From Paramacrobiotus metropolitanus (Eukaryota; Tardigrada; Eutardigrada; Parachela; Macrobiotidae), in assembly GCF_019649055.1 (NCBI RefSeq), contig NW_026570395.1, positions 62,001 to 126,000 of the forward strand: DNA of 64,000 nucleotides, given 5' to 3'. The position numbers were made by a program, and so were the translations under genes. This document shows, one piece after another, positions 2,012 to 35,860 of the stretch; position 1 is the first letter of the stretch, and each line of letters begins with the position of its first letter. The notes below the pieces were generated by a model. It made no database searches. It worked only from the letters and a program-made list of their open reading frames with translations, and had not been told where the DNA came from.

Positions 2012-5000
2012 ATGACAGCCTGTTTTATTGCCGGGATTGTGCTGTTGGGATGTGTGTTCCTTCAAGGTTAAACACAATCATCATTAGTTTTAATTTTGTA
2101 ATGTTATTCTCGTTATACGTTAATAGTCGCATTATAATATTTTCAGAAAACTATTTTTGGTTCTTGTTTTGTTAGTAAACTTGGACAATTTGTTGGTACA
2201 GGTGTGACGGCACGCAGTGCTAACCTCCGCACCGTCAATACCGATTACCACTTCTCCACATGGACGAAAGGAGTGGCGATTCCTTATTGTCTGGATTCGA
2301 CCTTTTGTACGATTTTCTCTCCCATCATAAAATATTACACTGGAACAGCGTAGCTGATTTGTATCACGCCGGTTGTGTTTTTCTACAGTGCAGAACGAGG
2401 TCGATGCGTTCAACAAGGCCCTCGCCAACATTACCGCTACTATCGGCAGCTGTATGACCTGGACCCCCGTAGCCTGCAGTGCCACAACATTTAAGAACCA
2501 CTTCATGCCCTTAACGTAAGTGGCTCTATGTACTTGCACAGCAGTGAGACGGATTCCGGCCTTTAATTTCACCGCACCATAAAATTACCATTATACTGAT
2601 TTTCCGCATTTTATCCTATTAGGGATGGTACGACCCCGTCGTTCGCTTATCCAGGAAAGAATTTAGATCTGGCCAATTACACAAAGTCGGGAGTATACGA
2701 GCAGGTTGTCGGATTACAGCGTTCCGATAGTACAATGTGTTCCACGGATTATCGTTGTATCATGAAATGGTTGGCTGTTACAATGACCTTGCGCATGGAA
2801 CACCAACGCTACGATCGCGACCCGTACATCACCGTAATAACGGCCAACTTGCGCGTTCCGGTAAGACTACATGACTGGTTGTGGCAAAGAATCTGACAAA
2901 ATTTTAAAAGGTTTTATGCCGGCATCGTAGTCAGCGTACACCAAGTATCTCGCAAACGGAGAAGCCTACTGGGGATTGTATCCCGTATACGACTACTGCA
3001 GTATCACGGTAAGGGACATCCTGTTGCTATTTTTCTTGCGGTTGTTTAAACGGCGCAACTCACCGCGTGTGATGTCGCAGCATAATCAAGATACCGACTA
3101 CGCCGTAGCCGGCACCAAAGCCTTCACCGTCTCCCAGGCCCCCTACTGCATCCCCAAGCTGCCGACAATCAGCAAATACGACTGCTATTATCTTACCAAA
3201 AATTATCAATGCCCGTCAGCCGTCTGTGACAGTCTTCGTACGTCCGCTACTCGTATCAACGACATTATTCGCTGTGCTTAAAAAAATACGACATTTATAT
3301 CCAAAATAATTTTATTTAATGTTAATTCAGTTAATTTGATTTAATCTCCTAGTCATGTAATAATGTAATAATAATGCAATAATGTAGGAATGTTTGCGCG
3401 TTTGTAATATTCAGTTTTCTGGTTAACTTTAAATGATTTTTCAGCCGACTGTGCGAGCCAGACCTGCCAGCCGGCGACAACCACTCCCACCACAACACCA
3501 ACAACACCCACAACGCCCACCACGCCCACCACCCCCACGACCCCCACTACCCCCACCACGCCTACCACGCCTACAACGCCCACAACCACGCCCACCAGCA
3601 CCACCACGGGTTCAACGACCACCTCCACGTCCACCACGTCGACCACCACCACGACCACACCTACCACCACAACAACCACCACCACCACCACAACCAGTAC
3701 GATCACAATTTTCGATAATAATATTTTGTAACGATTGAATTTTAATGGACTGGGTATCTCCTTACAGCCGCGCCCGTGTGCATCGACTTTTGCCTGGACA
3801 CGACCAACATTGACGAAGCGTCCAAACTCTATAATGGAAACTACTACATGTTTTCCGGTAACCTATTTTAAGTGCCCGCTTTCTATGAATGCAGCGGGTC
3901 AAGTTAACCTCAAGTTCCGTATTCCAGGAAACTGCATGGTACAAATCGATACCAGCAACAAATTGGTTGGCCGTTCAGTGCAGATCAACACACTCCTTCC
4001 CGGTGTCACCGGACCGGTGAAGTCGGTGTGGACGGATAAGTACGGGACCACGTTCGTTATCACCGGCACGGTACGAGGAGCAGCATTACGGTATAGCCAT
4101 TTTCATTTTCTTTCGCATATGACAGCAGTGTCTATTTTTCTAGGCTCAATATCAATGCCTCGGTACCCCGGTCAACTGCATCACCCTCCCGATTGTGGAC
4201 ACGGCTTTTCCCCGTACGGATTTCTTAGGAACCTTCTTTAGCTTGACCTGTGAGTTCTGAGTCGCGATAACTTGTTCACCGACATTATGTCGACTGGCTC
4301 TTCGTCGACCACATCACCAAGTCGACCGCCTCGGTTAAGAAGATCTGAGAAAACTAAGAAATTTATGACAACACCAAAGTGTTTTTAGGTTTTTTACGAT
4401 TTCGTAGGTTTTTTAAAAAAACTCGAGAAAACCTAAAAAATCCAAGACTGTTTGAACTAACATGAGCTCCATTTTGTGACGGGTCGAAATTGTATCTGTT
4501 GGTCGACGAATTTCCGTCAACGAAATGGCGGGTCACACAGATGTAATCATGCTAGCTAGGAAATGACCATATTCCGTGTTGCAGCGGCCGCCCCGACCAC
4601 TACCTATCAGAACGATGCGCAGAATGCCGTGGTCCCCATCTCCCTTGGTGTTAATTGCCAGTACACCGGCACGTGTGTGGTGGATCCGGCGACATGGAGT
4701 GCCATGTATACTGTAAGCTATTGGCATATTTTTGTTGGAACTGCCCACAACTATGCAAGGACAAAACTATCCTCAATTATACGTAAATGTACTGCTGCTG
4801 CCACCCACCGGAGCGCAGCGTTACGCCAGTACATTTGGTTAACTGAGACGCGTTCCATTAGCATCCTGTTTAGCTACAACGTAAAACTCCAGCCTGGCGA
4901 CGGCAGGCTCTACATGAAGATGGTTCGAATAGCATGGTTTTCACTTTTGTATACCGTTCTTGAGGCACAGCTGAATGACTTTCGTGATCATCCGAGGGTT

Positions 5001-7958
5001 ACTCGGAAAGTAATGATAACTATCGCACGATTTTTTATTGCATCAGCGCTTTCCTCGTATTTTCTCAAAACAATGTCCCTTAATCTCTATACAACGCAAA
5101 CAGCTAAACAGCCACTCATCAAACGTTTTCGAAAAGAAATTAGGCGGTATCTTAGAGATCGGTGTACTGATATTTTCTTCCAGTTATTCATAATTTCAAA
5201 CTTTTTGCCCCGCAACAATTTTTTCAAGCCAGGAAATATTTGGAACAGATAAAGGACTAAGGTAAACTAAGAAAAATAATGTGGAACGATAATTTTACTC
5301 CAGGCCGAGAAAAAAAATAAATCAGGGACGGGGTGCTTATCTGTGGATTTTCGCGATATTGCACCACACGGATGATACCGTGCCAGAAACCATTTTCTTC
5401 TGCGTTATCAGTAAGCAGCTGCAGCACACTCTCGACACCTTTCCTTCCATAATGATTAGACCCTCTGCTATTGCTTCGGGGTCGGAAAAGGATCTTTCTC
5501 GATCAGGGTTTTGACTATGATTACTTTTCGAAAGTGGAAACTCAAAAAATATTCCAAAATTTGAGCACCGTTGTCAAAACGGAGTGCTCGGTGGGAGTTC
5601 GCTGGAACCAACTGGCAACATCAGCAAAGAATGGTCCTTATTAAGGCGACAGAACAGGCAATACAGCATGAAAAATTCTACACTTCTCTCTGCAAATCAA
5701 TTTTTCAAAATAATATCATGAAAACTGGCCAGTAATTAAGGCAACGCTTTCAGTGATCAGTGAAAAATCAGCGCTACCCAGCCATGTTCAGAGCCTTGCT
5801 AGCCGCCAACCTTAGGCGGTATGGCCACGGCCATTGCCCTATGATCTAGTTATGAATGCTACAGTTTTTAAAAAATCAGTGCATAATTTTATGATTATTA
5901 ACTGATACTGATTATCATTACTTTCCGAGTAACCCTCGTAATTATGCAAAAAACTCTATCTCAAAATTTTTAAAATTTTTTCTAATAACACACTGGTTCG
6001 ATCTCTCTAGATTGTGAAATGAATTTGGAAAATTTCAAAGTCCATTATAAATTTTTACTGATGCTACTGAACCTCTGATCCGTTGTGGGTTTGCACAAAC
6101 GTCAGCACAGTTACGTTGTATACTTCTATAAACCCTTTAATACGGCACCCCTCCAACTCTTCTGTACTATATCCCGGCAGCCGGCTAGTTAAAAGTGCAG
6201 TATAGCATCTAGTGTGAATTTTACTCGTACTTATGCTGGAACTTACAGCTTATACTGATTTTAAGTAAAAAGTAGAGCACTTTTACTTAAGTATACTGAT
6301 CATAAGTAAAACTCGAGACTTTTATTTACGCTGCAGCTCAAGTAAAACCCACCGACTTTTACTTATAATGAGTCTATTTTAACTGTTTTACTTAAGCTGA
6401 TCAAAAGTACTCAAGCACCGAAGCAAAACTCAAAAAATTTTATTTTTTAAAAATTTTTTAAAGTTGCTGTCTGCTGCAATAGCACTTTGAAAATTTCTGT
6501 AAAATGCTGTCTTCCCACTGGTAACGTCGCCTTGCGAATGCAAACTCTGTTAGCTAATCGCAAGATAATCTTGCTTGTTACGAATCACAATTTTGTATAT
6601 TCTTTTACTATTGATTTTTTGTGCGGCTGTGCCAGACAACTTTAGTTCTCAAACATAGGATTAGGGAGCCCCTGAGCTCTCCGCGTGGAAAGCCGTGTTC
6701 GTCCGTTTAAAAAATTCAGCTCTCTCCCGGTTTCCCTTCCGTAAACTACCTGAACCGGAGCCGTTTCCCGTTCAGTTCCGGCCCGTCTACGATAGAGTGG
6801 TATACCGGCCCAAGTCCTGGCCCGTTACGTCGATTCCGCTAGATGGCTCATGCAAGCGGAACCTGCTTGTGCAGTCGGTTTCGGCGAGCAAATACGGTCA
6901 AAACTGCTAAACAGCGATCCCCATCCAGTATTAAACCTTTTTTGCCTATTTTAATTTTGTAAAGCTTTCTATTCGGGTCTTCAGATTATCACAAAAAACT
7001 GCCTTTGCCTGCTTACAATTAGGCTGATAATTACGCTTCTTAAATTTTTGCTAAAAGTTAAATTACTTTAGCTGATGACTTTTACTTCAGCCTAAAATTT
7101 CTAGTTATTACTTAAGCTGATTATAAGTAGTCACTAATTTTACTTATGACCGGCTCAAGTCCAAAGCTTCTGCTTTTACTTGCACTTATTATACTTAACA
7201 AGGTAGAATTATAGCTTTCGATCAGCTTAAGTAAAACTACAAGTTAATTACTTCTAATCAGTCAAATATTCACCAATAGCATCTGCCTAGTATAGCTGAA
7301 AATGCAGCGTAGCATCTGTACGTACAGATGCTCCGCCGACCAATAGAAAAATTCGAAAGCAGTTGAATCGAGTGCAGATGATAAACGTGCAGTCGCCAGC
7401 GAGGACGGTTGCTCATGCTGCATTTTCAACTAGCCGGCTGCCGGAATCTGGTACAGAAGTCAAAGGGGTGCCGGAATAAAAGGTTTATCGAAGTATGGCA
7501 TCACAGAGGACGCGTAGCCGTAGCCCGTATGTATCTCGGCCGGTCAGATAAAGTCCTTAATACGAAATCCATTAGCCAACACATTTTCTTTGTGGAGCTC
7601 CTCTAAAGACTGCCTGTCGTTATAGGACTGAATCTATGGCACTACTGAAGTTCACCTAGGTCGTTAAGACCTGAAATAAAACTTATTGTAGTAAATACAT
7701 GTGAGTGCTTTTATTTGACGTCAGAATTATTTGTTCTTGCAGCTTGCTATATCACCCACGTTTGGCATAATGTACGTCATCGGTAAGAGTCCGGCCACGC
7801 CGGGACCGGTGCAGCGGGCCATGATGACCTTAATGCAGGCGGACGTAATAACTCCGGCCAACGCCGGCGCCGGTACCAGCAACAATTTGGCTACGGTCGG
7901 CAATGATGGTGTCCTGCTTAGTACCGTCCTGGGTTGTCCTAATGCGGGGGCAGGATAA
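2012..7958 (+). CDS. Secreted astacin-like pseudopeptidase with Thr/Pro linker and hemopexin-like domain (paralogue 2)
   Basis: Twelve exons: 2012-2066, 2202-2306, 2389-2515, 2623-2860, 2931-3008, 3081-3237, 3445-3696, 3768-3857, 3928-4070, 4144-4249, 4585-4712, 7743-7958. All junctions are GT-AG and keep frame, giving 564 residues. Residues 1-18 are a signal peptide. Exons 2-6 follow the astacin fold: W..G..IPYCLD at the mature N-terminus, MEHQRYDRD where astacins have HEx(S/T)RxDRD, then YDYCSIT at the Met-turn. The HExxHxxGxxH zinc motif reads KWLAVTMTLRM, so all three ligands and the catalytic Glu are lost. Exon 7 is an 84-residue Thr/Pro linker. Exons 8-12 give four hemopexin-like repeats (IDEAS..YYMFSG, VKSVWTDK, VDTAF, WSAMY) framed by Cys near the start and end. 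Intron 11 is 3 kb and holds transposon relics. Peptidase activity is very unlikely, and the ligand is unknown. Confidence 0.8.
3445..3696 (+). repeat. Thr/Pro mucin-like coding repeat (exon 7 of paralogue 2)
   Basis: This exon opens with a Cys pair (DCASQTC), then runs as TTPTTPTT-type repeats, a TSTTTGSTTTSTST core and a poly-Thr tail. Such segments are heavily O-glycosylated in mucin-type proteins (established knowledge). Long open frames on the opposite strand here encode only Val/Gly runs and are shadows. Confidence 0.75.
4786..4913. mobile_element. About 125-bp MITE, diverged copy 1
   Basis: Short inverted-repeat element in intron 11 of the preceding gene. Its right end, aacgtaaaactccagcctgg followed by cgacggcag, matches copies at 51,605-51,728 and 63,047-63,177. 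The left end (actgctgctgccacccaccg) is the degraded complement. It has no coding capacity. Confidence 0.6.
4993..5938. mobile_element. Foldback element bounded by perfect 26-bp inverted repeats
   Basis: Bases 4993-5018 (cgagggttactcggaaagta and six more) are the exact reverse complement of 5913-5938. The 946-bp span lies in intron 11 of paralogue 2 and has no convincing ORF. No target-site duplication was identified, so the true element ends may lie further out. Confidence 0.5.
6121..7495. mobile_element. Degenerate foldback element with about 85-bp inverted arms
   Basis: The arm 6121-6205 matches the complement of 7415-7495 with scattered differences. Both carry ccggcagccggctagtt and a block reading cggcacccct on the top strand at left. 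The interior is rich in agtaaaa/ttttact and cttaag motifs in both orientations. It lies in the enlarged last intron of paralogue 2. No ORF of note is present. Confidence 0.5.
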
Positions 7959-8213: not shown

Positions 8214-8219
8214 AATAAA
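8214..8219 (+). terminator. Poly(A) signal of paralogue 2
   Basis: AATAAA lies in a block, aagactgcaataaaa, that is conserved downstream of paralogue 3 (18,761-18,766). It lies 256 bases past the stop. Confidence 0.6.
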
Positions 8220-9262: not shown

Positions 9263-9299
9263 TTTCCAAAGGCGGTAAAATTTTTCGAGCAATAGTCTC

Positions 9300-10619: not shown

Positions 10620-12290
10620 CCGACGATACCACGTAAAAACCGTGTAACTGTTTAGTATAATAATTAAAGTACAATCATTGTAATGAACTATGTATCTTCA
10701 CATACGTAGTTATCTGCGTCTACAAACGTCTGTTTTGTATGCTTACGGCTTACCCTATTTGTTAGCGTAGCGCTGAAGTTGTGTGGTTGAGCGATTCAGT
10801 GTCTGTCATGAGCGTGCAGAGTAAAAATCATTAATGTACTTAGGCAGTATTTTCCGTTGTGGATAACGCAAGATACGTTCGTTTATCAGTGAGAAACCTC
10901 CAGATTTTTTTAGATAAAATCAGTACTTAGAGAAGTAGTTTCTCGTGTGACTACTGGCTGCTGCACGGCTTCGTTGACATCAGTGGAACCCAAAGCGAAG
11001 TACCGGCAGTCGTTGGGAACTGACTGTCCTTTAATATCATGTAAACACTTCTTATTGCCGTCGAAACTTCAGAAACAACTAAATCTTACTGTTAAGTTTT
11101 TTCTCGGCAAATGATTCCGACAATCAGCCCAGTTTGGTAAACGTTTTTGCCACTTTGCAAAATTAATTTAACGATGCCAGTTTCTTTTGTTTTTCAGTTT
11201 AAGTTCTTCTAGTTAAGTATTTTACTTTATTCAAACTATATTACTAAGCAGTTATACTTCGTTTTGTCTCGTATTTCGGTCACTTAAAAGGCTGCGTTTT
11301 CGTATTTCGGCCACCTGGCGTTAAAATTTCCGAACAACACACAACAAAAATGCCAGAAATGAATGGTTTCCATAATAAAAACTTCGTTCAAGAAATTCGA
11401 AGCATAAACAAAAGAAATTTTAATAAAAAAATATCAAACAGAGAAATTGGACCGTATGTAATGTAAAAGAACCGCTCTTCCACGTTTACAAATTTAAGAA
11501 ATTTTATGCTCCAATATTTTTACTTTTGCTTTTATAATTGTAGACAGATGAAAAATAAATCATGAAGAAAGTTATGCGATCAGCAAGTATTCATGTAGCG
11601 CGCCACAAGGGGTGGTGTAAGTGACCGGCGACCAAAATATATTTACTTTATACTGAAACATGTGACAAAACGAAGTATTTCATTTTATAATTTTTTATCG
11701 TTTACAGTCGATCCGGTAGTTTCCTTCTATCCCTGCTTCTCAGGGTCCATATTACAAAATATCTGCTCCGAACCTGTTACTAAAAGTGCCAGTCCCGATA
11801 AAACTACTCTAGTAAGTTCACGGGGTTCTTAACCGTGGCAGCATTACAAGTACGATCGCGTCGTGCTAATTTTTCTTCAAAAGCACACAGCAATTATTAA
11901 TGAGAATATATTCTCACGGACCACTACGTAACTGTAGCTACTGAACCACCAATCAGAAATCAGCTAACCTTTTTGGTGCGAAGATGTCTCAAAGTATACA
12001 GATGACGGTACATCCTCCAAGAGGACTTACTTGTAAGACGATTGATCGAGCGAGCGTATACGTATTAATCAAAAATTGCGAAAATTTTGAATGTGAACTA
12101 TTAAATATTTGATTCTGTTACAGTGCATTCTTTCATCAAAATTTATTATAAATATGATAACAATGTAAATTATAGATCCCCGTAATATGGGACAGGTACT
12201 GATGACGTCATCGGGTCACTTCCGTAAGAGACAGACCGACGGACAGTCAATTTTTTATTTCAGATTTAGAGAACCTTCGCTGAGCTTGAT
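10620..12290. other. Gene-free AT-rich stretch
   Basis: No coding region with splice or motif support was found on either strand. Short ORFs show no family resemblance. Confidence 0.5.
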
Positions 12291-13590
12291 CAATAATTTT
12301 ATCTTTGAAAAGGTCACTGTGGTGTACAAATGTCCAGCATTGTCAGACACCAGACTGCCAGAGATTTGTAAACAAACTTATATAGTGACACGTAGGAAAA
12401 CAAACTTATCTGCCGCTATAGCACAGTACAGTCATCCGGCGGCTGAAGAATATTATATACTCGTAGCTTTCTGCGTTTCTGGGAGCGCCGTTGCTGAGGC
12501 AATTAAAAATCGCTGCCACCCAGAAAAAGCCGTTGAGTTGGAGGGGTAAGAAGCGTTGAAGTGGCGATTGTTAATGGCAGCTGGCTTGGATTAAAAAACG
12601 CCGGGAACGACCAAAACATACAGCTGCAGTGACGGTATACGCACTGATCGGCGATTTATGGCGTTTTTATAAGTGGTCAGCTGGATGCAAAGCTTTTGGT
12701 TCAAGTTCAGGTGACGTAAAAATAAAAAATGCTGTATAATTTTATAAACAGTTCCCGGTAATTCCCATGTTCAATATTAGGTTGTATTTGTGGAAAGGTC
12801 AAATACGTACGTTTGCAGGAGGCCTGCACGGGTGTCTTGAAGTGTGCCAGTGCTGATGCCATCAAATAGTAATCATGGATAAGCCTGCTTAGCCACGTTT
12901 GTACAGCGACGAAATTACTGAATGCATAATGCAGATTTCAACGTACACGACGTAGCATATGTACAAGCTTGTCCGGTAATTTCTGCCGGTTCAAAACAGC
13001 GAAATACTTACACAAATTTGCGTGTTACGCCAAGCGTAGTCTAGTGGCAATCGCTATAGCGCAAACTGGACGCTAAATATGTGCTATCTGTATCTTTACG
13101 ACAGAAATTACCGGACAAGCTTGTATACGACAGATTTCAGCCTTGATGCGGCATACGTATAAGACAGCCTAGCAGAATTTAATTAGATAATAAGAAATAC
13201 CGGATTTGCAATAAAATTGGCGGAATTTATAAAATTGATGTCATTTTGTTATGTTGAAGTACTACATAACCTATAACTTAATTTACATGATTTTGTACTC
13301 GATCGCGAAGAAAGTAAACCGACTGAAAAATATGCTGCTAAGCCTGATATATACCATAGGCAATATATTAACGCTCCAAAGTGCTGCGATTTCACAAAAA
13401 ACCGGTGCGCATATGAATTTTCAGTGTTGCAGGAGTTAGGAGTATGACTATGTATCGGCCGCAACGTATAATGTATTCCCTCGGTAGAGGTTCGTTGTTT
13501 CGCTTACATGTCCAATCCGAATCCGTTAAGAGATACAGTGACGGCATACAACAATGTACTTCAGTATGCTATTCACTAAAGCAGTTTTAT
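12291..13590. repeat. Right arm of the large inverted duplication
   Basis: This is the reverse-complement partner of 870-1998. It carries an inverted, orphaned copy of the 5' flank of paralogue 2, including the cttatatag TATA-like string near 12,380, now pointing left. Similarity ends at about 12,291, equivalent to the bases just before the ATG. I find no homologous first exon to its left. A 190-bp MITE interrupts this arm at 12,941-13,130. Confidence 0.75.
12941..13130. mobile_element. 190-bp MITE with 9-bp target duplication inside the right arm
   Basis: It is flanked by cagatttca at 12,932-12,940 and 13,131-13,139. Subterminal inverted repeats read acaagcttgtccggtaattt on the left and its complement near 13,100-13,123. 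The other duplication arm lacks the element and has a single gcagatttca, so it serves as the empty site. Inside is a perfect RNA polymerase III A-box-like string (tagtctagtgg), but no B box was seen. Confidence 0.75.
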
Positions 13591-15002: not shown

Positions 15003-18000
15003 ATGATAGCCTGTCGTATTGCTGGTGTTGTGCTTTTGGGATGCGCGTTCCTTCAAGGTTAAACGGAATTTTCCTTACTTCTTATGTCTATAATGTTACT
15101 CTCGTTATCCGCTCATTAAAATTTTCTTCGATAAATTTTATTCTGGATTACGTTTGGTCAATAAACTGAGGACTTCATTAGTACAGGATTAACGGCACGC
15201 AGCGCTAACCTCCGCACCGTCAACGTCGATACTCACTTTTCCACATGGCAAAGAGCAACGCCGATCCCTTACTGCCTGGATGCGACCTTCTGTACGCTTC
15301 GACTATCCCAGTTCTAAAGAACTGCATTTTTATAGCCCGGCCTTTATGTTTACGGTGGTTGCGTGTGTTCGATAGTGGGACCGGAGACGACCGCGTTCAA
15401 CACGGCCCTCGCCAACATTACCGCTACTATCGGCAGCTGCATGACCTGGACGGCCGTGCCGTGCGCTTCCACAACATTTAAGATCCGTTTTCTGCCGTTA
15501 ACGTAAGTCCTGCCCTATAGCAAGTTACAAGTTAACCGCCTCCCGAATTTTTTTATGGGTAATTCTCAAATGTATCATGAACAGCGATGGCAGTACCCCC
15601 TCCTACGCTTATCCGGGCAAGAATCTGGCTCTGGCCAATTACACACAGTCGGGAGTCTATGAGCAGATTGTCGGACTGCAGCGCTCCGATAGTACGCTGT
15701 GTTCCACGGATTATCGTTGCATCATGAAATGGATGGCGGTTACCATGAGCAAGCGTATGGAACACGAACGCGGGGATCGCAACACGTACATTGGCGTACT
15801 AACAAACAATTTGCGCGTTGTGGTAAGTGCCTATAACAGGTCGATCTTCTGTCTTCCTGTACCCCACTGAACATACTCACGCCAAAGAATTACTGCAGCC
15901 GAGAGATTTGACCGCTGAGGGCGCCGACATGAAATGGCATACAAAACTGAAAACACCGTGTTTGTGCATGTAGGCAGCGTACAACTTGTACGCAACGACG
16001 GATGCCTACTGGAGCTTGTACCCGTATGACTACTGCAGTATCACGGTAAAGGTCATCCTCTTGCTCGTTTGCATGTTGTTGCTCTAATGGCGCAACGCAT
16101 TGTGTCATGCCGCAGCATAATCAAGACACCGACTACGCCCAACCCGGCACCAAAGCCTTCAACATCCTCCAGGCACCCTACTGTATTCCCAGGATGCCGA
16201 CGATCAGCAAATTCGATTGCTACTACATTACCCGCAACTACCAATGCCCGACAGCCGTCTGTGACCTTCTTCGTACGTCCGCCATTTGAATCAGCGGCAT
16301 TACCTGTTGTACTTAAATAAACTGTGTGATTTCCAGTATATTCAATCAAACTTACTTATACTACGTCAATTCGATTAATTCGGTCAATTCGGTTTAATCA
16401 CCTATTAATGCAATAATCTTCAGTTTTCTAGTTAATTTAAAGTTATGTTTGCAGCCGACTGTGCGACTCAGACCTGCCAGGCGACGACAACCACCCCCGC
16501 CACAACCCCAACCACACCTACAACACCCACCACCCCCACCACGCCTACAACGCCCATAACCACGCCCATCAGCACCACCACTGGTTCCACAACCACTTCC
16601 ACGTCCACCACGACGACGACCACCACCCCAACAACGACTACCACCACCACGACCACGCCCACCACGACAACAACCACGACCACTACCACCACCAGTACTA
16701 CTGCAGATTTTTTTTAATACTTTATATTATTTTCCGTTGAGATAGTTCTAATAGGTCGGGCATCTGTTTATAGCCGCGCCTGTATGCATCGACTTTTGCC
16801 TGGACACGACCAACATCGATGAAGCGTCTAAAATATATAATGGAAACTACTACATGTTTTCCGGTAACTAGTCTTAAATGCCCCGCTTTTCTGTGAATAC
16901 AATGCGCAAAGTTAACCCAGAGTTCCATGTTCCAGGCAACTGCATGGTACAAATCGATACGAGCAACAAACTAATTGGCCGTTCGGTGCAAATCAACACA
17001 CTCCTTCCCGGTGTCACCGGACCGGTGAAGTCGGTGTGGACAGATAAGTACGGTACCACGTTCGTCATTACTGGCACGGTACGTGGAGCAGCATTACGTG
17101 TATTGTACTGCCTCAACCACTTTCCTTCGCATATGACCGCAGTATCTGTTTTTCTAGGCACAATACCAATGCCTCGGCAACCCCGTCAACTGCATCACCC
17201 TCCCGATTGTAGACACGGCCTTTCCTCGTACGAATTTCATTGGGACCACCTTCAGTTTGACTTGTGAGTTCCCGATTGAGCGGAGAAAAACTTAAGAATA
17301 CCTAAGACATCTGATAAACTTGAGAAACATAAGAATCCTGTTAATTGACGGCTTAGCAAGACGCGCTTAGCTTGATTTTGCCGCGGGTCAGCGTTGTGTT
17401 TGTTTGTCTTAGTGACAGTCGACGAATTTCCGTTAACGAGATGGCGCGTCACAGAGATTTAACCCTGCTAGATACGAAATGAACATGATCGTTTTGCAGC
17501 CGCCGCCCCGAGCTCTAACTACCAGAACGATGGATCCGGTGCCGTGGTCCCCATCTCCCTTGGCGTTAATTGTCAGTACACCGGCGTGTGTGGGGTGGAT
17601 TCAACGACATGGAGTGCCATGTACACGGTAAGCTACTTTGCATGTTTTTGTTAAAACCGCCAACAAATCCGCTAGGACCACACAAAAACTTCCTCAATCA
17701 ATAAAAATATTGTTTTTGGGTACAGCCTATTAACACATTGATGATCATATGAGAAACAAGCAATTTTGTTAATTTCGAAATGAATTGCAAAACTTTTTTT
17801 AATTCATTATGAATTTTAATAAATAATGGTGAATCTTTTGCAGAGCAATCGTATTATTCGTATAGACATAGTAACGTTACCACAGTTACTTTGTACGAAG
17901 TATACGAGTTTCGGTGCGAAATAATCTGTGCATGCAGACGGTGATAATCTGTGCATGCAGACACCTGTTTGTTTTTAAACTTTAGGAATCGTTTTTCATG

Positions 18001-18495
18001 CCTTACACGTAACAAGCAGATGTTGCGCGCACAAACGGTCTGCACGCCACGTGTATCCGAAATCAAATTTTGGCCAGGCACTTAATTTGCAAAGCTGTTA
18101 CCATGTTCTAGAGTTTGCATGTCGTCAAGGCTTTATATTGCTGTGCTATTGCAAAATTATCATTTTGGTTAAAAACGTTACAACATATAGACTACAATAA
18201 TGCAATCAATACTTGCGTCTGCGTTTGTACAATACGTGTGTGTGTGTTTACCTGACATCAGAATTATTTGTCCTTGCAGCTTGATATAACATCCACATTT
18301 GGCATAATGTACGTCATCGGTAAGAGCCCGGCCACGCCAGGCCCGGTGCAGCGGGCCATGATGACCTTAATGCAGTCGGATATAATAGCTCCGACTACCG
18401 CCGGCCCCGGGACCAACAATAATTTGGCGACGGTCGGTAATGATGGTACCCCGCTTAGTAGCGTCCTGGGTTGTCCCAATGCGGGAGCAGGATAA
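15003..18495 (+). CDS. Secreted astacin-like pseudopeptidase with Thr/Pro linker and hemopexin-like domain (paralogue 3)
   Basis: Exons: 15003-15057, 15187-15291, 15376-15502, 15585-15822, 15974-16045, 16116-16272, 16455-16694, 16774-16863, 16936-17078, 17158-17263, 17500-17627, 18280-18495. The frame is intact for 558 residues. Signal peptide is 1-18 and the astacin-like domain is about 40-250. Positions equivalent to zinc His1, Glu, His2 and His3 are Lys144, Trp145, Val148 and Met154. They are followed by EHERGDR (astacins: HEx-x-RxDRD) and YDYCSIT at 193-199, where the Met-turn Met is Thr. No propeptide separates the signal from the W..IPYCLD start, which fits a protein that needs no zymogen control. 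The Thr/Pro linker is about 252-331 and the hemopexin-like repeats are 332-558. It is very close in sequence to paralogues 2 and 4. Exon 3 uses a gatag acceptor. Confidence 0.82.
16455..16694 (+). repeat. Thr/Pro mucin-like coding repeat (exon 7 of paralogue 3)
   Basis: An 80-residue Cys-led Thr/Pro segment. The block order is the same as in paralogues 2 and 4, but repeat numbers differ. Confidence 0.75.
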
Positions 18496-20723: not shown

Positions 20724-23700
20724 ATGACAGCCTGTCGTATTGCTGCAGTTGTAGTGTTGGGATGCGCGTTCCTTCAAGGTTAACCGGAATCTTCATTGAT
20801 TTTTATTTCTATAATATTATTGTTGTTATACGTTCATCATAATTTTCTTCATTAAATTTTCTTTCTGATTTATGTTTTACCGATAAACCGAGGAATTTAT
20901 TGGTACAGGGTCAACGGCACGTAGCGCTAACCTCCGCACCGTCAACGTCGACACACACTTTTCCACATGGCAAAGAACAACGCCGATTCCTTATTGCCTC
21001 GATGCGTCCTTCTGTAAGCTACGTCTGTCCCAATTTTAAAGAACTGTATTTTTAGATCTTGGTATTTATATTACGGTGGGTGCGTCACGTGCGTGTGTTT
21101 CTACAGTGGCTGCGGAGACAACCGCGTTCAACACGGCCCTCGCCAACATTACCGCTACAATCGGCAGCTGCATGACCTGGACGGCCGTACCCTGCACTTC
21201 CACAACATTTAAGATCCGTTTCCTACCCTTAACGTAAGTGTTCACCGAATCCCCTATCCCGGGACCATTTTTTATGATTTACATAATGTATGCGTGAACA
21301 GCGATGGTACGACTCCATCCTACGCGTATCCAGGAAAGAATTTGGCTCTGTCGAATTACACACAGTCGCAAGTGTACGAACAGATTGTCGGACTGCAGCG
21401 TTCCGATAGTACACTGTGTTCCACGGATTACCGGTGTATCATGAAATGGATGGCGATTTCCCTGAGCAAGCGTATGGAGCACGAACGTGGGGATCGCAGC
21501 ACGTACATTGCCGTACTAACAAACAACTTGCGCGTTGCAGTAAGCGCCTGCCATTTTTCAGACGAATAATATATAAAGCACAGATATGTGCCAATAATCA
21601 TTTGTAGTGTGATTTGTACATAATATCTGTCCAGAGTCCACACATTAGGCACTAGAATGCATCAGTGACTGTGCCACAAAACTTTAGTACGCCCTACTAT
21701 ACAACTATACTATACAACAGTACAATACAACTAAATATTGTACAAGTGTCAAGTGAATACATCTGTAAATCTGCAGCGCAAAAGTGTTCCAACATTTTAG
21801 GCAGCTTACAACGTGTACTCAACAACAGATGCCTACTGGAACTTATACCCGTATGACTACTGCAGTATTACGGTAAAGATCGACCTGTTACTGTTTTTGA
21901 TGTTATTTCTATAATGGCTCAATTCATCGTGTGACGCCGCAGCATAACCGAGATACCGACTACGCCCAACCCGGCACCAAGGCATTCACCGTCCTCCAGG
22001 CCCCCTACTGTATTCCCAGGATGGCGACGATTAGCAAATTCGATTGCTACTACATTACCCGCAATTACCAATGCGCGACAACCGTCTGCGACGCTCTTCG
22101 TACGTCCGCAACTTGCATCATCCGCTCTGCTTAAAAATTACGTGATCTACCTATGTTCGAATTAAGTTTATTTAACATTAATTTGATTCAATCTTTTTTC
22201 CGTGTAGTTATTTTCAGTTTCCAGTTAACTTTAAATGGTTTTTGCAGCCGACTGTGCAACCCAGACCTGCCCATCCACGACAACCACATCCGCCACAACA
22301 CCAACCACACCTACAACGCCCGCCACCCCAACCACGCCTACCACGCCTACAACTACGCCCGCCAGCACCACCACGGGTTCCACAACCACTTCCACATCTA
22401 CCACGTCGACCACCACTACCCCAACAACGACCACCACCACCACCACCACGACCACGCCTACAACAACAACTACCACCACGACCACCACCAGTACGACTGC
22501 AAATTTTGCAAATTATTGATAATATTATCTTACTTGGCTTGAATTTTAATCGGTTGGCCATCTGCTTACAGCCGCGCCCGTATGCATCGACTTTTGCCTG
22601 GACACGACCAATATCGACGAAGCGTCCAGGCTATATAATGGAAACTATTACATGTTCTCCGGTAATTTAATTGAAATGTCCCACTTTTCTACAAATCCAC
22701 TGCGTTACGATGGCCTTAAGTGCAATTTTCCAGGCAACTGCATGGTACAAATTGATACGAGCAACAGATTGATCGGCCGTTCGGTGCAGATCAACACGCT
22801 CCTTCCGGGCATCACCGGACCGGTGAGGTCAGTGTGGACGGATAAGTATGGAACCACGTTCGTGATCACCGGCACGGTATGTAGGGTTGTTTTAAACTGC
22901 CGCAACCATTCCCCTTGTCAAATAACCGTAGTGTCTGTTTTTCTACTTCTAGGCGCAATACCAATGCCTCGGCACTCCCGTCAACTGCATCACCCTCCCG
23001 ATTGTGGACACGCCCTTTGCTCGTACGGATTTCCTAGGGACAACCTTCAGTTTGACCTGTAAGTTCCCGGTCTGAGTCGCAATAACCTTTTCATCGGCAT
23101 TCTACATGTTTCGGCTACGGCTTGGACTATGTCTAAGAAATCTAAGAAATCTAACAAAGGAAATGAATATGAATGTCAGTAAATCGCGGTAGGAAATGAA
23201 TATAATTGTGCTGCAGCGGCAACCCCGACCTCTAACTACCAGAATGATGGGACGTCGGCCGTGGTTCCCATCACCCTTGGTGTTAATTGCCAATACACTG
23301 GTGTATGTGGAGTGGATCCACAGACATGGAGTGCCATGTACACGGTAAATTACTTCATAATTTTTGTTGGAACTGCCAAAATAACATACGCAAAAACAAG
23401 GGTAAAATATCTTCAATTATGCACATATCGTTTTTTGCAATAAAGAGAAAAACGCTTCAGTACTGCTGTTTTTCGTGGAAAAGTGGCGGCAGTTTTGGGC
23501 ACCATCCCGCTTGTAAAACGGCATGATAACGTTAAAAAGGGTACTGCTTGCTTTGGTTTTGTAACCTACCGGTATTTAGTTTCAAGTAGTCGTGTCTGGT
23601 TGTAGCCATAAGAATTGCTAAATTAATAAAGACTTGTAAAAAATAAATGAATGCGCTTATTTGACGTAGAATTATTGGTCCTTGCAGCTTGCTATTACAC

Positions 23701-23903
23701 CCCAATTTGGCATAATGTACGTCATCGGGAAGAGTCCGGCCACGCCGGGTCCGGTGCAGCGCGCCATGATGACCTTAATGCAAGCGGATATAATAACTCC
23801 AATGAATGCCGGCGCTGGTACCAGCAATAACCTGGCGACGGTCGGCAATGATGGTGTCGCGCTTAGTAGCGTCCTGGGCTGTCCTAATGCGGGGGCAGGA
23901 TAA
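20724..23903 (+). CDS. Secreted astacin-like pseudopeptidase with Thr/Pro linker and hemopexin-like domain (paralogue 4)
   Basis: Exons: 20724-20778, 20909-21013, 21107-21233, 21302-21539, 21801-21872, 21943-22099, 22248-22490, 22572-22661, 22734-22876, 22953-23058, 23217-23344, 23688-23903. The frame is intact for 559 residues. The signal peptide MTACRIAAVVVLGCAF is nearly that of paralogues 2 and 3. The zinc-site equivalent reads KWMAISLSKRM, followed by EHERGDR. The Met-turn equivalent is YDYCSIT. The linker is an 81-residue Thr/Pro exon. The hemopexin-like part has IDEAS..YYMFSG, VRSVWTDK, VDTAF and WSAMY repeats and ends in a Cys-containing GCPNAGAG tail. The start-to-start distance from paralogue 3 is 5.7 kb, one tandem unit. 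Intron 11 is only 343 bp, against 3 kb in paralogue 2. Confidence 0.82.
22248..22490 (+). repeat. Thr/Pro mucin-like coding repeat (exon 7 of paralogue 4)
   Basis: An 81-residue Cys-led (DCATQTC) Thr/Pro segment ending in poly-Thr. Opposite-strand frames give Gly/Arg or Val/Gly runs and are not genes. Confidence 0.75.
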
Positions 23904-26101: not shown

Positions 26102-29100
26102 ATGTACTTTATTATATCGGTTATTTTCCTAGCGATAGCAACAGGTAAAAGTCGGGATCTCCTGGCTGTGTTGTTTTTCGTATCCGGTGTGCTTCGCGTT
26201 ATGTCTCGTGTTTGTTTTGCTGCGGACCATGTTAACAATTGATTTTATAGAGTACGTCAGTGCGCACGAACCGGACAATGTCCACCCGACCAATTCGATC
26301 AGCATGTTCGGTCGCTGGAATAAATCCGCGATTTATTATTGCCTGGATTCCAGCTATGGTACGTTGTACAAGCTCGTTAAGAAAAACCATTCAGAGCCCG
26401 AATATCTTAATGAAATCCGAAGCTAGTGGATTTCAGCAGTACGTACAGTATTTGCCGGATTTTTTAAACTTTTCTAGTTTACTTTAAAATTTACGGTATG
26501 CTAATACATGTTTGCAAAATCCTGTTTAATGAGGTTTTGGTTTTCCACAGCGCCACTAGAAGTCGCCACCATCAATAATTCCATTCACGCGATGATGGTC
26601 GCCGTGCCGTGCTTGACCTTTATTCCGGTGTCCTGCAGTGATACCGTCTACAAAGTCCACATCACACCATATACGTCAGCGGCGTCGTAAGCCCGTTATT
26701 CTTTCGTACCTTCTCGCTAATACGCCACGTTGAACGTTTTTTGTCCTCTAAAGGTCTACCTTATCAGCCGTGTCCTTCAGCTTTCCCGGCATGCATTTGG
26801 AGATGGCAAAGAATTCCTCCGAGCAGGTGTTGTGTATTGCACGTGACACACAGAGCTGTTCTGTCAATGAACGGTGTGTGCTGAAATTCCTGGCGGTTCT
26901 TCTGGGGAAACGCAACGAGCACCAGCGCGGCGATCGGGATCAGTACATCACTGTCAACTACAAGAATCTCCTTATTCCGGTAAACGAACCGCCATAAAAT
27001 CGAAAAAACAATCCATAAACTGGAATTATTTTTTATTCTTATTTTTTACCATACATAAAAATTATAATTGAGCAGAACCGTTGCACGATTGAATTAATCA
27101 GTAAAACAGCAAAGGAGCGATTGCTGAGCAAACGAAATAAAATAACGTCTAATTAATCTTCCATCATTTTCAAAAAATTTTGCAGTCATTTCTGAAATGT
27201 CATGATTGTTTTCGCAGTCAACATACAGACGCTACAGTACGGACGAAGCGTATTGGCAGCTTTTCCCATACGACTACTGCAGTATCACGGTAAGGCTAAT
27301 AACATTCAAGAAGCTCCTTGAATTTGATAAATAATAAACGGTTTGCAATCAGCACAACCAACCCACGGATTACGCAATGGCCGGCACAGTGGCCTTCAGT
27401 GTGGCAGCCGGCGCGCGACCCGGCTGTGTACCGGCGCTCAACACCATCAGCAACACCGACTGCCGGCTGATCAGTCTGATGTACCAGTGCAATACATCCC
27501 AATGTGCAGCGTGTAAGTACAACATTATTTATATTTTATACTGCAGAAAGAGTACTTATTTATGTTTGATAATATTTGTTATTTCTAAGATTTAATTTGT
27601 AGTAATCATACTCGTTAATATTGCAAAGATTTATGTACCAGTTTCGGTATCGATTATTAACACATGTAGGGTTACCGGTTTTCATCGACTGAGGTTGAAT
27701 AATTATATTACAGTGGACTGTGAAAACCAGCACTGTCCGTCCGCCGCTGCTACGGGTGTTTCCGTTGCCACCTCTGTCAGTAACAACATTGCTACCACGC
27801 TTACCATGGAGACTACCACAACGTCGAAGAGCATCAACGGAAAAATAGCAAGTAATAATTGTAGTGCCAGTGTTTTGTATTGAGATTGGAGACTGATTCT
27901 TCGTCATTTCTTACGGTTTTCTCATGATAGCCATACCTCCATGTGCGAGCTACTTTTGTGCCACACCAACACCAAAGATTGATGAAGCCTCCCTCTTATA
28001 CGACAATCGGTACTTTATGTTCTCAGGTACTCGCAACGATTATTGTCGTATTGGATAGCAAAAGGCGTCGTAGTGGTGCTGACTCTGAGCATTCACTCCC
28101 GGTTTGGTTTTACAGGGGACTGCGCGGTACAGATTGACGAGAGCAACAAAATCATCGGCGAATCCATGAAGATCAGCTCCCTCTTTCCCGGTGTCAGCGG
28201 TCCAGTGAAATCCGTCTGGACGGACCAGATGACCGGGGTCACCAGCGTTGTGACAGCGGTAGTTAAACAACCTAAAATGCATCATTTAATTTCTTTTTTT
28301 TTTAGTTCTGTAATTATGCCAGTATGCAATGAAATATTATTTTCAGGCAGCTGAGTACGCTTGCCTGGCCTCCGGCTGCACGCCGGTCAGTCCGATGAAC
28401 GCTACTGCCGCCCCGCGGTTTGAATTTGCTGTTATGCAGTCGACGCGGTTTGATGCGTACAATTACGCTATCAGTATAACAGGTAGGCGTCGTGTGTGCT
28501 CGTACTGATTTATCAACAACTAATTTAATTGAGTTCCTGGACGCGCGTACAAGTCGTTTGTGATTTTCACAAATAAAAAATTTCGAGGTGTTTTGACTCA
28601 TTACGTATCTGTATATTGCGAACTGGTTGACCAGTAGACTGGAGTTTAAAATGGCTTTAACCCATACCCACCCGTATGCAGAGCATTATTTTTATAAATT
28701 CCACTGCATATCCGGCAAAACGCAATTCTAAGCTTGCGGACATTATTCCGAGTAGTTTTATTTATTCTTAAGCTATTTTTTATATTTGTTTTCTTTGAAA
28801 TTATTAGAACGCTGCTTTTAAAGCATCTGAACTGGGGTTGCTTATAAAGGGAAGGGAAGCAAACGACTGTTAAGCTTGGAAAACGAAGCGAGGTCACGAA
28901 GCAACAACAGTATAATTACGATTACCAAAATTGAGAAACACAGATCACTGTGCGGCCAGATCGCAGGTCTTATTTACGAAGTAGAACTTATTTTTTATTT
29001 ATTTATTCAGCCTTATTTATTATTTATTTCTGTAGTTTTCGTTCTTCTTTCGTTCGTACGGGACGATCCCGTACGAACGAAAGAAAAACGAAAACTAAAT

Positions 29101-29644
29101 CAGGATAGGGACAACTTGGTCAGCTAGCTTCCTGTAATGTGCGCAGTCATGGTGCGCTCATGGTAAAGCTGGTCACAACAGACAGCCACGGCATGGTGAA
29201 CCGCTTAGACAACATTCATCCGCTTTATCGTCAACAACGATTGACCTTTACAATATGTTGTACAGGGGACACGTATATCAACGAGCAGACGTCCCATCAG
29301 AAGCCGCTTAGCAGCATCACATGTCTGCCGGCAACCGGCCCATCGTCAACCCCGTGTAAAATTAAAGGAGCGTGGAATGCCGCATATATGGTAGGAATAC
29401 GTATACAGTGAACCTTATAAATTGTCGGCTATCATGTACTTTGATAACAGGCTCTAGTAAAATAATTTTGTCACAGCTGCGATTGGCCGGTTTCAACATG
29501 GTCAGCGTTATCGGCACAGACGGAGCGGATCCGGAGCAGTATCTGCAAGTGATGCAGTACACGGGCACAGAAATGGCACCAGATACCTTTCAGTTTTTAA
29601 CAACCGGGATCCGATTACGGGATGCACTGCAGTGTTCGCCGTGA
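26102..29644 (+). CDS. Secreted astacin-like pseudopeptidase with short linker and hemopexin-like domain (paralogue 5, divergent)
   Basis: Exons: 26102-26144, 26251-26358, 26551-26686, 26754-26979, 27218-27289, 27353-27512, 27714-27851, 27931-28026, 28116-28258, 28347-28482, 29266-29390, 29477-29644. This gives 516 residues, or 540 if the ATG at 26,030 were used. I chose 26,102 because of the TATA position and because MYFIISVIFLAIATG makes a compact signal sequence. The astacin likeness is clearest here: W.KSAIYYCLD, then EHQRGDRDQYITVNYKNL, then YDYCSIT. The zinc motif is KFLAVLLGKRN: only the Gly of HExxHxxGxxH survives. The linker is 46 residues of Ser/Thr-rich, non-periodic sequence. The hemopexin-like part has IDEASLLYDNRYFMFSG, VKSVWTDQ, FDAYNYAISITG and WNAAYM repeats and ends in LQCSP. 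Confidence 0.77.
29033..29097. repeat. 65-bp near-perfect palindrome in intron 10 of paralogue 5
   Basis: Two 31-bp arms, with one mismatch, surround a 3-base loop. The centre reads gtacgggacgatcccgtac. It could form a cruciform or, in the transcript, a strong hairpin. Confidence 0.8.
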
Positions 29645-31349: not shown

Positions 31350-34300
31350 ATGGCGAAATATTTGGTTATTACCACGACGTTGTTGGGATGTGCGCTATTA
31401 CTCCATGGTATTTGTTATCTCTTTTCTATCTATTAATTATATGATTTCGATTGTTGTATTTAAGTTGTAAAATTCGGTGGCGTGATTAATGTTTGGCAAA
31501 ACCAAAAGAAATCAATTCTGTTTTTAGGAGTCAGTGCGAAAAAGCCGGCCAAAAAGCCCAGTCGCAGCAGCCAGGTGCGCGCGATCAACATGAACACTAA
31601 TTATGCTCAATGGAACAAAGCCAGTATTCCATACTGCTTGGACAGTAGCTTGAGTAAGTGCGCCTCCATGTGCTGGTGACCTTTATAACCTTTATGGCTA
31701 CCTGGCTATTAGCCGATAATTAACACCAGCACTTTATCTTCGCGCAGCCACCGCCGAAAAGCAAGCAGTCACGGATGGCATCCAGACATTCGTTAACGCC
31801 ACGAAAAACGCCGGTGTAGCCTGCTTCAACTTCGTACAAATGAATTGTGCGGACTCTGTGTACAAGTTACAATACCAAGCGCAGTAAGTACAATATTTTT
31901 CATTCACGTAGAACGGCTAACAGCTTTAGGGAAAATTGCCTCGTACATGGTGTCAAAATTGGGATACATTATACATACTGTTTACTCCGAATCACTGTTT
32001 TGTAATTCTTTATGCCATTCTAAGCCTACGTGATTTGTATACATTGTTCTCAAAACCGTTTGCGCGCACCATCCAGTTGCCGAGATATGGCGTACTACTC
32101 GTAAAACGCTTTGTTGTGTACCAAAGTCTGGTTATTACCAGATTTTCTTCAAACTTTGCTGTAAAAGACACATGACCGATTTTTTCCCCCGATTTTAAAA
32201 TGAATCTGAAAAATCTTAAAATTCATTTTAAAATAATGGGAAAGCACTATGAACCTAAAATTGGTTCACTTTCGACTTCATGGTCATGTGTCTTTTACAG
32301 CAAAGTTTCAAGAAAATCCTTAACAACAACCATAAGTGTTTACAACCCGCGGCTGTTATCTCCTTAAGATATGTTACGTAAATCAGTACACTGGATTATC
32401 TATACGACTTACGATCCTTATAACAGATCGGGAGCCGCCAGCTTCTCGGTTCCGGGAATGAACACGGCACTGAAGAGTTCCGGAGCCTACAATCAGGCCA
32501 TCATCCTGTCGCGGGACGACGGCTGCAGTACCAATACCCGTTGTGCGCAACGCTGGACCGTCTTCACCATGGGCAAACTCAACGAGCACCAGCGTCTGGA
32601 TCGTGACCAGTCGCCAGGTCCTTTCATCGCGATGAATTCGGCTAGCATGTCGGCCAACAATATGACAGTATGCTGCGCATATGCACAGCGCTACCAGTCT
32701 ATATCATATTGCGCTAAAATTTGGTTTTTCTTCATTTGTAGCTGTATTACAGAAAATACACTACCTCCGAAGCATACCTTGCCACTTTGGGTTACGATTA
32801 CTGCAGCATCACGGTAACTAAATATTCTGTGCGATATCACTTTTCTAACCGTACAACAACAACTGTGACCTTTACAAATATTCTGGACAATTCCGAGGTT
32901 TTTGGTGCATACCTTAGCACAACCAGCCGACCGACTACGCCTACCCGGGCACGCAGGCCTTCACCGTATTAAAGGCGCCCTACTGCATTCCGCAGCAAAG
33001 CACCATCAGCAACATCGACTGCAATCTGTTACTGCAATGGTACAGCTGTCCCAAAGCGCCCTGCAGTGCAATACGTGAGTGTTGAACCTACATCATCCCG
33101 ATGATGTAAACTATTTTGACTGGTTGCTCCGCAGCGTTGTGCTCGACGCAAACGTGTCCCACCACCGCCGCCCCTCCGTCTTCGACCACCCCGGCCAGCA
33201 GTGGCGCGACCAGCGCTGTTTCGGGCGCCACGGGTGCTTCCTCGGGATCCACGTCGCCCGGGGCGTCTACCTCGCCCGTCTCCGGTTCGACCACACCGGC
33301 TCCGTCGTCAACATCACCCGGCTCGACGAGCGCCGTCTCTGGATCGACCAGCGCACCTCCTTCCTCCACATCGCCCGGTGCATCCACATCCCCCGTTACC
33401 GGTTCCACGTCTCCGGCATCAACCACACCGGTGTCCGGCTCCACAAGTCCGGCGCCGTCCTCCACTTCCCCTGGCTCATCGACAGTGTCCGGATCCACAA
33501 GCGCATCCTCTGGACCGACATCCCCCGCCTCGTCTACTGTGTCGGGAGCGACAAGCCCGGCGTCGTCAACCAGCCCAGGGTCCACCAGCGTTCCGCCTTC
33601 GTCGACATCACCCGGATCCTCCACATCTGCGGGATCAACAGTATCCGGTTCCACCAGTCCTGCACCGTCCTCGACTTCTCCCGGTTCCACGGTGTCTGGA
33701 TCCACTAGCCCGGCCCCGTCATCAGCTTCCCCGGGATCAACAGGGTCAGGCTCAACCAGTCCTGCACCGTCGTCAACCTCCCCTGGCTCCACGGTATCCG
33801 GATCAACCAGTCCTGCACCTTCATCCACTTCCCCAGGTTCAACTGTCTCCGGATCCACCAGCCCGGCTCCCTCATCAACCTCCCCTGGTTCGACCGTTTC
33901 CGGATCAACCAGTCCTGCACCTTCGTCAACTTCCCCAGGCTCCACGGTGTCTGGATCCACCAGCCCGGCTCCTTCATCGACATCCCCGGGGTCGACAGTA
34001 TCCGGTTCCACGAGTCCTGCTCCTTCATCAACTTCACCAGGTTCAACCGTCTCCGGGTCGACAAGCCCAGCCCCGTCATCTACTTCCCCAGGTTCGACTG
34101 TGTCTGGTTCCACTAGCCCAGCTCCATCATCGACATCCCCTGGTTCCACGGTGTCCGGATCCACGAGTCCTGCACCTTCATCCACTTCCCCAGGTTCAAC
34201 TGTCTCCGGATCCACCAGCCCGGCTCCCTCGTCAACCTCCCCTGGTTCGACCGTTTCCGGGTCCACCAGTCCTGCACCCTCATCGACGTCTCCCGGATCT

Positions 34301-35860
34301 ACCTCTCCGGCGCCTTCGTCGACCTCTCCAGGGTCCACAGTCTCGGGGTCGACCAGTCCAGCTCCTTCTTCGACTTCGCCCGGCTCCACGGTTTCCGGGT
34401 CCACCAGTCCGGCGCCGTCATCCACTTCCCCCGGGTCAACCACCCCCGCATTATCCTCCACGAGCCCTGGCTCTTCGACCTCCCCTGCGGCATCCAGCAC
34501 AACCCCGGCCTCCACCACCACGACGCGCCCAACAACTACTTTAACTCCAACCACCACGGCGACCGGCACAACCACTCCTTTTACAGGAAGCACCAGTAAG
34601 TAGAGCGGCACATAATCCGAATACACGCATTATTATGTGCTGTTAGACCACCAGGTCATGTGTTTTATTCCGTAACTTTCGAAGAATTTTCGGGAAAAGT
34701 TCTGACTGCTCTTCAAAATATAACAGTCCCAATATATACAGTAAGTAAGTTCCCTGTTTCAGCCGTTGGACCTTGCGTTGACTTTTGCCAGGAATCAACG
34801 CCCATCGATGAAGCCACCCGCTTGTACAACACCACCAACTACTATATGTTCTCCGGTACGGTTCAAACTTGGTACTTGATAACTTTATTTCGTTTAAATA
34901 AAGTTTATGCATCAGTCCCATTAAAACTGTTCTTAGGTGACTGCATGGTGCAAATCGATGAAACCAACAAACTAATCGGGCCATCGGTCCACATCGGCAC
35001 CATTCTCCCCGGCGTCACAGGACCGGTAAAATCAGCATGGACCGATAAATATTCCACAACGTTTATTGTGACGGTACTCCCCGCATTCGGTTCGGCTGCT
35101 GGTATGGCAGCAGCGTAACAGAGGTTTCATTCCCATTTCTCTACAGGCCACGGCGGAGTATAAATGCACCCTGACGACTGGTTGTCAATCCATCAGTGCC
35201 GTCGATAGTCCTACGTTACGCTGGGAAAATTATGTTACGCCAACTACGTTCAATACATACAGTTACAATCGTATGTACCGTCACCTATATTTCCTTTAAT
35301 CACTGGGTAAATTTGAATTTCATCCAGCATCACGTTTGACCTTTCAGCTGCCGGCACGTCCGCCTACACCAATGAGAACGGAGGCGCTGTGACACCGGCA
35401 TTTGCTGTTACCTGTACCTCGGGAACCTGTAATATTGACAACGCCAACTGGAAAGCCGCTTACCTGGTAAAAATACCCCGTTTCCGAAACTTAATCTGAA
35501 AAAAATTAGCAAAAATGCTCTGATGAGCAACGATGAAAGTTTATCATAGCCGAAATGAGCACAAATGCTCCAATGGGCAGTAATGAGAAAAGGGGAAAAT
35601 TAAAACGAATTTCTTTATACTTAAAAAACCAAGCCGCGGTATTTGTTGATACGAGGCCAATGGTTTTGTAGGTGGCAGGACCACCGGGCGTCAATATCGT
35701 CACGGTGATCGGGACAAATACAGCCGGTGTACGGTATCTGGCCTCCATGATGCCCGGCAAGCTCTTCAATCCGTCGGCCAACGCCGACTCCTACCAGATG
35801 ATTGGTGCGGGTACTCCGCTCACCGCGTCACTGGGCTGTCCTAACGCGGCGGCTGGATAA
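31350..35860 (+). CDS. Secreted astacin-like pseudopeptidase with giant Ser/Pro/Thr linker and hemopexin-like domain (paralogue 6)
   Basis: Exons: 31350-31407, 31528-31653, 31748-31883, 32427-32667, 32742-32813, 32918-33074, 33135-34595, 34763-34855, 34937-35073, 35147-35270, 35348-35466, 35672-35860. The frame is intact for 970 residues. The signal peptide MAKYLVITTTLLGCALLL precedes a Lys/Arg-rich stretch and W.KASIPYCLD. The zinc motif is RWTVFTMGKLN, followed by EHQRLDRD, so both the His ligands and the Glu are lost. The Met-turn equivalent is YDYCSIT. Exon 7 encodes a 487-residue Ser/Pro/Thr linker built largely of a 17-residue unit, against 46-84 residues in its paralogues. The hemopexin-like repeats are IDEATRLYNT..YYMFSG, VKSAWTDK, VDSPTLRW and WKAAYL, ending LGCPNAAAG. 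Confidence 0.78.
32141..32318. mobile_element. 178-bp hairpin MITE in intron 3 of paralogue 6
   Basis: Arms 32,141-32,177 and 32,282-32,318 are inverted copies 37 bp long with one mismatch, containing gctgtaaaagacacatgacc. The spacer has a further ttaaaatgaat / attcattttaa inverted pair. Confidence 0.7.
33135..34595 (+). repeat. Coding minisatellite: 51-bp unit, Ser/Pro/Thr mucin linker (exon 7 of paralogue 6)
   Basis: From about 33,650 to 34,430 the exon is a tandem array of a 51-bp unit encoding STSPAPSSTSPGSTVSG, about a dozen or more copies, flanked by more diverged units. Copies differ mainly at third positions, so the protein repeat is better kept than the DNA repeat. The long opposite-strand frame (33,088-34,626) is a product of this periodicity. 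Confidence 0.85.

Follow-up and report, generated by a model that had tools for sequence, protein, structure and literature searches.

Pseudo-peptidases and domain shuffling are both already known. Active astacins (M12A, PF01400) are characterized, in a 2023 review (PMC9848320), by the features HEXXHXXGXXH, EXXRXDRD and SIMHY, and the review gives many domains that occur C-terminally in astacins, while the words 'hemopexin' and 'inactive' are absent from its main text. The inactive ADAMs and other pseudo-metallopeptidases described in the main text of PMC11266112, which names astacin once, as a metzincin group, are secreted or surface metzincins that have lost their zinc ligands and are used for binding. 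Matrix metalloproteinases (MMPs) with hemopexin (M10A) combine, in this order, a signal peptide, a metzincin domain, a linker and a hemopexin module. Among the open-access literature matches listed, as represented by their titles, abstract starts and passages, there was neither an astacin pseudo-enzyme family nor an astacin-hemopexin protein, and those on tardigrade astacins or tardigrade hemopexin contained no description of the combination. Nor was it described in the available passages of PMC3675644 (on an insect MMP), of PMC5763927 (which sets hemopexin-like peptidases apart from astacins) or of PMC12549020. Here we analyse a 64,000-nucleotide stretch of the genome of the tardigrade Paramacrobiotus metropolitanus (C175:62001-126000, 'the window'; 169.8 Mb of genome searched), which carries a tandem array of genes joining a catalytically dead astacin domain, through a linker, to a hemopexin-like module. 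These genes form a real family, with an unusual architecture, and under purifying selection.

Protein-to-DNA alignment and splicing by hand gave five complete family genes in the window, all, with all their parts, on the + strand and each with 12 exons: c1 (2012-7958, 560 amino acids), c2 (15003-18495, 554 amino acids), c3 (20724-23903, 559 amino acids), c4 (26102-29644, 512 amino acids) and c5 (31350-35860, 970 amino acids). Exon start phases are identical in all five (0,1,1,2,0,0,1,1,1,0,1,0), 55 of 55 introns are GT-AG, every gene has a single terminal stop, and the 60 exons are without a frame break. The spliced models thus bear out the five complete 12-exon genes proposed in an earlier sequence-only reading of the window. 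The one partial gene of that reading proved to be exon 12 (349-507, + strand; acceptor ACAG, reading VKGAGSMNYVNVIG...LLSKSLQCPSP) of a sixth gene of the family, which begins upstream of the window. The remaining exons of this gene lie upstream, at about 58.9-61.8 kb of C175 (locus L010), and L010 also holds one further family gene just upstream of the window; the array, therefore, comprises at least seven genes. Exon 1 of c1-c5, judged by eye, resembles a signal peptide, as had been claimed.

Exons 2-6 of all five window genes exceeded the Astacin (PF01400) cut-off of 22.5 bits in the profile search proposed with that reading, scoring from 30.0 to 51.4 bits: c1, 2202-3225 (E 1.8e-8, 34.7 bits); c2, 15187-16260 (5.2e-7, 30.0 bits); c3, 20909-22099 (1.1e-7, 32.2 bits); c4, 26251-27512 (4e-13, 49.9 bits); and c5, 31528-33074 (1.4e-13, 51.4 bits). 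In c4 and c5 the profile was matched over its full length. No M10 family appeared in the Pfam search of the five domains, and an MMP origin of the N-terminal domain was rejected, since Astacin alone was above the Pfam cut-off. The domains resemble astacins further in having IPY (IYY in c4) 4-5 residues after a Trp, the family-specific Glu, RxDR and the C-terminal ...DC...YxC. The landmarks that had been named from the letters alone thus stood in part: YDYCSI and E-H-x-R-x-D-R are present in all five genes, whereas the literal pattern W..IPY had no match in the window pattern search and DRD is limited to c1, c4 and c5, its final Asp being replaced by Asn in c2 and by Ser in c3. Unlike astacins, the window domains have no HExxHxxGxxH and no SIMHY, and in none of the five proteins did the first 60 residues contain [FY]xGD, the only aspartate-switch motif sought; 18-29 residues separate residue 18 from the first Trp.

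At the position of HExxHxxGxxH, c2 reads KWMAVTMSKRM. The motif was found in none of 25 zinc-site segments drawn from 15 stretches of the genome and the window, all 25 of which contain R-x-D-R, as the search pattern demanded. It was also kept in 0 of 26 aligned related domains, five from the window and 21 from other loci, a census that leans to the c2 pattern because its members were collected for their similarity to c2. The claim of a dead astacin domain was, therefore, upheld by the Pfam matches in all window genes together with the loss of the zinc motif throughout the census. The first zinc His is replaced in every domain, by Lys in 20 and by Arg in six; the catalytic Glu position is occupied by Tyr (11), Phe (5), Trp (4) or other residues (6); the second zinc His (His2) is retained in one relative only, L001; and the third (His3) has become Asn in 18 domains, Met in four and another residue in four. 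The zinc Tyr position holds Asn in 21 of 26 domains and Tyr in none, one domain being gapped, and the Met of the Met-turn is Thr in 26 of 26, in contrast to the inactive ADAMs, in which, according to PMC11266112, the Met-turn is typically kept. None of the five window genes retains any of the three zinc His, the general base Glu or the zinc Tyr. Retained in the dead domains are the family-specific Glu (25/26), the His of S-I-T-H-N (23/26) and the Gln (column Q17) in the strand that precedes the active-site helix.

The genome shows a very large expansion of Astacin, with at least 164 matches. We compared the dead domains with 20 further pieces, 15 from the Astacin match list (L023-L037) and five weaker matches. 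HExxHxxGxxH was intact in 13 of the 15, L036 and L037 being without it, which indicates that active enzymes exist beside the dead ones, and in none of the five weaker pieces. In a tree of 45 domains and 137 columns (L035, which has an intact zinc motif, was left out), the 26 dead domains together with L038, L040, L041 and L042 separated from the remaining domains with Shimodaira-Hasegawa-like approximate likelihood ratio test/ultrafast bootstrap (SH-aLRT/UFboot) support of 99.9/100, and the dead-domain group of 26 minus L001 had a support of 96.3/98; many inner nodes were weakly supported. L036, L037 and L039 (on C36, C52 and C1) are a second dead set, with other losses of the zinc motif. They formed their own group (88.7/96), which fell in with the active enzymes (joined to 11 of the 12 at 84.3/90), so inactivation probably occurred at least twice.

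The linker is a single Cys-led exon, exon 7, running from phase 1 to phase 1. It spans 3445-3696 in c1 (84 amino acids, 65% Thr, 17% Pro), 16455-16694 in c2 (80 amino acids, 68% Thr) and 22248-22490 in c3, being 80-84 amino acids long and 65-68% Thr in these three genes. The c4 linker (27714-27851) has 46 amino acids with 20% Thr, 13% Ser and 2% Pro, and that of c5 (33135-34595) is a Ser/Thr/Pro exon of 487 amino acids, 37% Ser, with a 51-bp (17-amino-acid) tandem repeat present in 12.7 copies at 33635-34284. Judging by its composition the linker is probably O-glycosylated; its description as mucin holds for c1-c3 and c5 but is weaker for c4.

Exons 8-12 encode the hemopexin-like module (c1, 3768-7958, from the spliced model and profile comparison; c2, 16774-18495; c3, 22572-23903; c4, 27931-29644; c5, 34763-35860), which is 220-227 amino acids long with invariant Cys at both ends (C5, C9, C221). 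Blade 1 (IDEAS..YYMFSG) and the first part of blade 2 (VKSVWTDKYGTTFVIT) show the hemopexin pattern clearly; in c2, blade 1 and the start of blade 2 lie in exons 8-9 (16774-17078). In hhalign, an eight-member family profile aligned with five hemopexin domains of MMP type from this genome scored 35.3 (p 1.2e-4, columns 15-111), against 18.1 for the best of 200 column shuffles, 11.2 for the reversed profile and 13.9 for an astacin profile. The same profile scored 47.1 with L001, the best of 200 shuffles reaching 22.4. In an hmmsearch of the open frames of L001-L022, the family hidden Markov model (HMM) also matched the L001 hemopexin (3.8e-6). L001 (C3:1552000-1559500) is, by its predicted splice model, an eight-exon gene with the domain order of the window genes; its protein contains Astacin (7.7e-24) and Hemopexin (4.6e-6), both over the Pfam cut-offs, and its C-terminal part gave 14 PDB matches at E up to 1 (7.4e-4 to 0.63), all of them MMPs, vitronectin or hemopexin.

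Other relatives end differently. In L011 an Astacin match (7.8e-16) is followed by a Gly-Thr linker and, in hand-joined exons, by a CAP domain (PF00188, 7.8e-15), and L015 has a similar reading with a CAP-type end (Pfam was run on L011 only). These two relatives thus share a CAP-type end module with CAP/SCP proteins, whereas Pfam gives no CAP domain for the window genes. The end modules of L004, L008 and L013 match that of the window genes (score 32.5, best of 100 shuffles 20.2). Hemopexin was rejected for these three modules, which matched neither MMP hemopexin (p 0.22), nor L001 (p 0.51), nor the family HMM. L009 and L014 (C125 and C4) each carry a pair of dead astacin domains, on one strand and separated by a few kb, which are either double-domain proteins or tandem genes, and in L014 a very long Thr/Glu-rich open frame comes next after them. 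We looked at the junction after the astacin domain in 19 of the 21 paralog domains (all but L007 and the second L014 domain): at all 19, the 40 bases that follow the domain include a phase-1 donor candidate, which was the first one listed at 17 (in L005b it is a GTAAGT overlapping the first, and in L009b the second). The junction at the end of the astacin domain is in phase 1 in all five window genes as well. Class-1 junctions of this kind fit exon shuffling.

The window genes, thus, share with hemopexin-bearing MMPs the order of signal peptide, metzincin domain, linker and hemopexin-like module, but their catalytic part is an astacin, and a dead one, while genes with an MMP-type zinc motif (HExGHxLGLxH) followed by hemopexin repeats occupy three separate loci (L017, L018 and L020). 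The convergent MMP-like arrangement suggested by the sequence-only reading is, therefore, borne out as a layout, because the catalytic part is Astacin, the MMP-type loci are separate and the module follows a phase-1 intron. We tentatively propose a fuller history, to which we give somewhat less than even weight: in a tardigrade lineage, an astacin would have lost its zinc, gained Lys/Arg at the place of the first zinc His and Thr at that of the Met-turn Met, and become the constant anchor of a large two-headed secreted family. Phase-1 exon shuffling would have exchanged the C-terminal head of these proteins (hemopexin, CAP or others), and the MMP-like layout would thus have arisen a second time, as a binder rather than an enzyme.

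We consider it fairly probable that the proteins are secreted pseudo-enzymes, a bridging or binding family built on an inactive astacin scaffold; the binding role that had been suggested for them is plausible. The dead astacin fold would no longer cut but would still dock, by way of its surface or its former cleft, on a partner outside the cell, and the probably O-glycosylated linker would serve as a stiff, hydrated spacer keeping the two heads apart. The exchangeable C-terminal module, hemopexin-like here and CAP in some relatives, would grip a second partner. Such a protein may form part of a secretion, the cuticle, the egg envelope or the gut lining as a bridging or binding element. The family itself is multiplied in tandem in the window array and scattered elsewhere in the genome.

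Several results weigh against this reading. In c1-c3 the Astacin profile was matched over its C-terminal half alone (from position 88 or 95), and the treatment of L001 as one gene rests on a splice model. Taken together, the six positions that once served catalysis show no more conservation than random columns do (P = 0.11), and those of the Glu and the second His vary freely. A conserved, repurposed pocket at the old zinc site, therefore, is not demonstrated; support for it is mixed, and it is only partly upheld by the fixed Lys/Arg and Thr. Direct detection of hemopexin also failed: the PF00045 search that had been suggested gave 0 of 5 window proteins at E up to 10, and a PDB profile search with the C-terminal module returned one chance-level match, to streptavidin (E 1.1). 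Of the hemopexin loci other than L001, seven in number (L016-L022), the family HMM reached L018 alone, in one exon (0.0012), the other six lying beyond its match list at E 5. Homology with hemopexin covers only the first 65-97 profile columns; for exons 10-12, hhalign gave no match to either MMP hemopexin (p 0.55) or L001 (p 0.32). We conclude that homology to hemopexin is supported for the first half of the module, that is two blades, because this half matches and exons 10-12 match neither reference, and that four blades are unproven; of the four repeats originally read in the module, blade 1 and the start of blade 2 thus stood, and the part encoded by exons 10-12 did not. The absence of Pfam hits and the unmatched exons would also be expected if the C-terminal part were a separate beta-rich domain, resembling hemopexin in its first 80 residues only and forming no four-bladed propeller. 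We regard this as rather improbable, given that the first half aligns in register with true hemopexin, at a score far beyond those of the shuffles, that the length and the first and last Cys fit hemopexin, and that L001 provides a bridge to a hemopexin recognized by Pfam.

The chief rival to a bridging role is that the proteins regulate working enzymes, the dead domain acting as a decoy or dominant negative by competing with the many active astacins (or MMPs) for inhibitors, substrates or pro-enzymes. The many Astacin matches, with the intact motif in most of the sampled pieces, speak for it, as does the conserved Gln of column Q17, which might still allow a peptide to bind. Regulation or scaffolding is, moreover, often the role of inactive metallopeptidase homologs (PMC11266112). 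However, the family is tied to no particular active enzyme, and its modular C-termini suggest more than simple competition; we think regulation unlikely. That the genes are decaying duplicates without function, as their lost catalytic residues and high copy number might suggest, is very improbable. The window genes c1-c3 are under purifying selection (Nei-Gojobori ratio of non-synonymous to synonymous substitution rates, dN/dS, of 0.13-0.35 over the astacin domain and of 0.135-0.19 over the C-terminal module; silent sites were saturated in comparisons with c4 and c5), which disfavours a pseudogene reading; in addition, the frames are intact, every splice site is kept, and a single dead-site pattern is common to 26 domains. 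Decayed pseudogenes were, therefore, rejected. It is scarcely credible that the domain still cuts by means of an unusual metal site: the retained His of S-I-T-H-N and family-specific Glu could be cited in its favour, but the zinc ligands and the general base are gone from every window gene. The residues now commonest at the old site (Lys, Tyr, Ile, Asn, Asn) form, to our knowledge, no known metal site. A bridging or binding role on an inactive scaffold thus remains our preferred reading.

Elsewhere in the window, exons of a cytochrome P450 gene lie on the - strand at 53069-57008 (PF00067 1.1e-31, 7.4e-22 and 1.3e-21 in three open frames). Two related stretches on the + strand, 37640-38316 and 40889-41897, are 70-87% identical in DNA; the reading of one of them resembles, by eye, a short-chain dehydrogenase, and Pfam gave no match on 38218-38553. 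An inverted repeat of about 1 kb (1018-2004 and 12289-13441, 73-77% identity) has one arm upstream of c1 and the other between c1 and c2. No RNA families were found in the window.

With at least 26 inactive domains that have a common dead-site pattern, beside more than 100 Astacin matches, this genome offers a test case for the passage from an enzyme fold to a binding scaffold. The layout of the window genes would also represent an independent origin of the MMP arrangement, and their long Thr/Ser-rich tethers raise the question of what such proteins may contribute to the secretions and coats of drying-tolerant animals.

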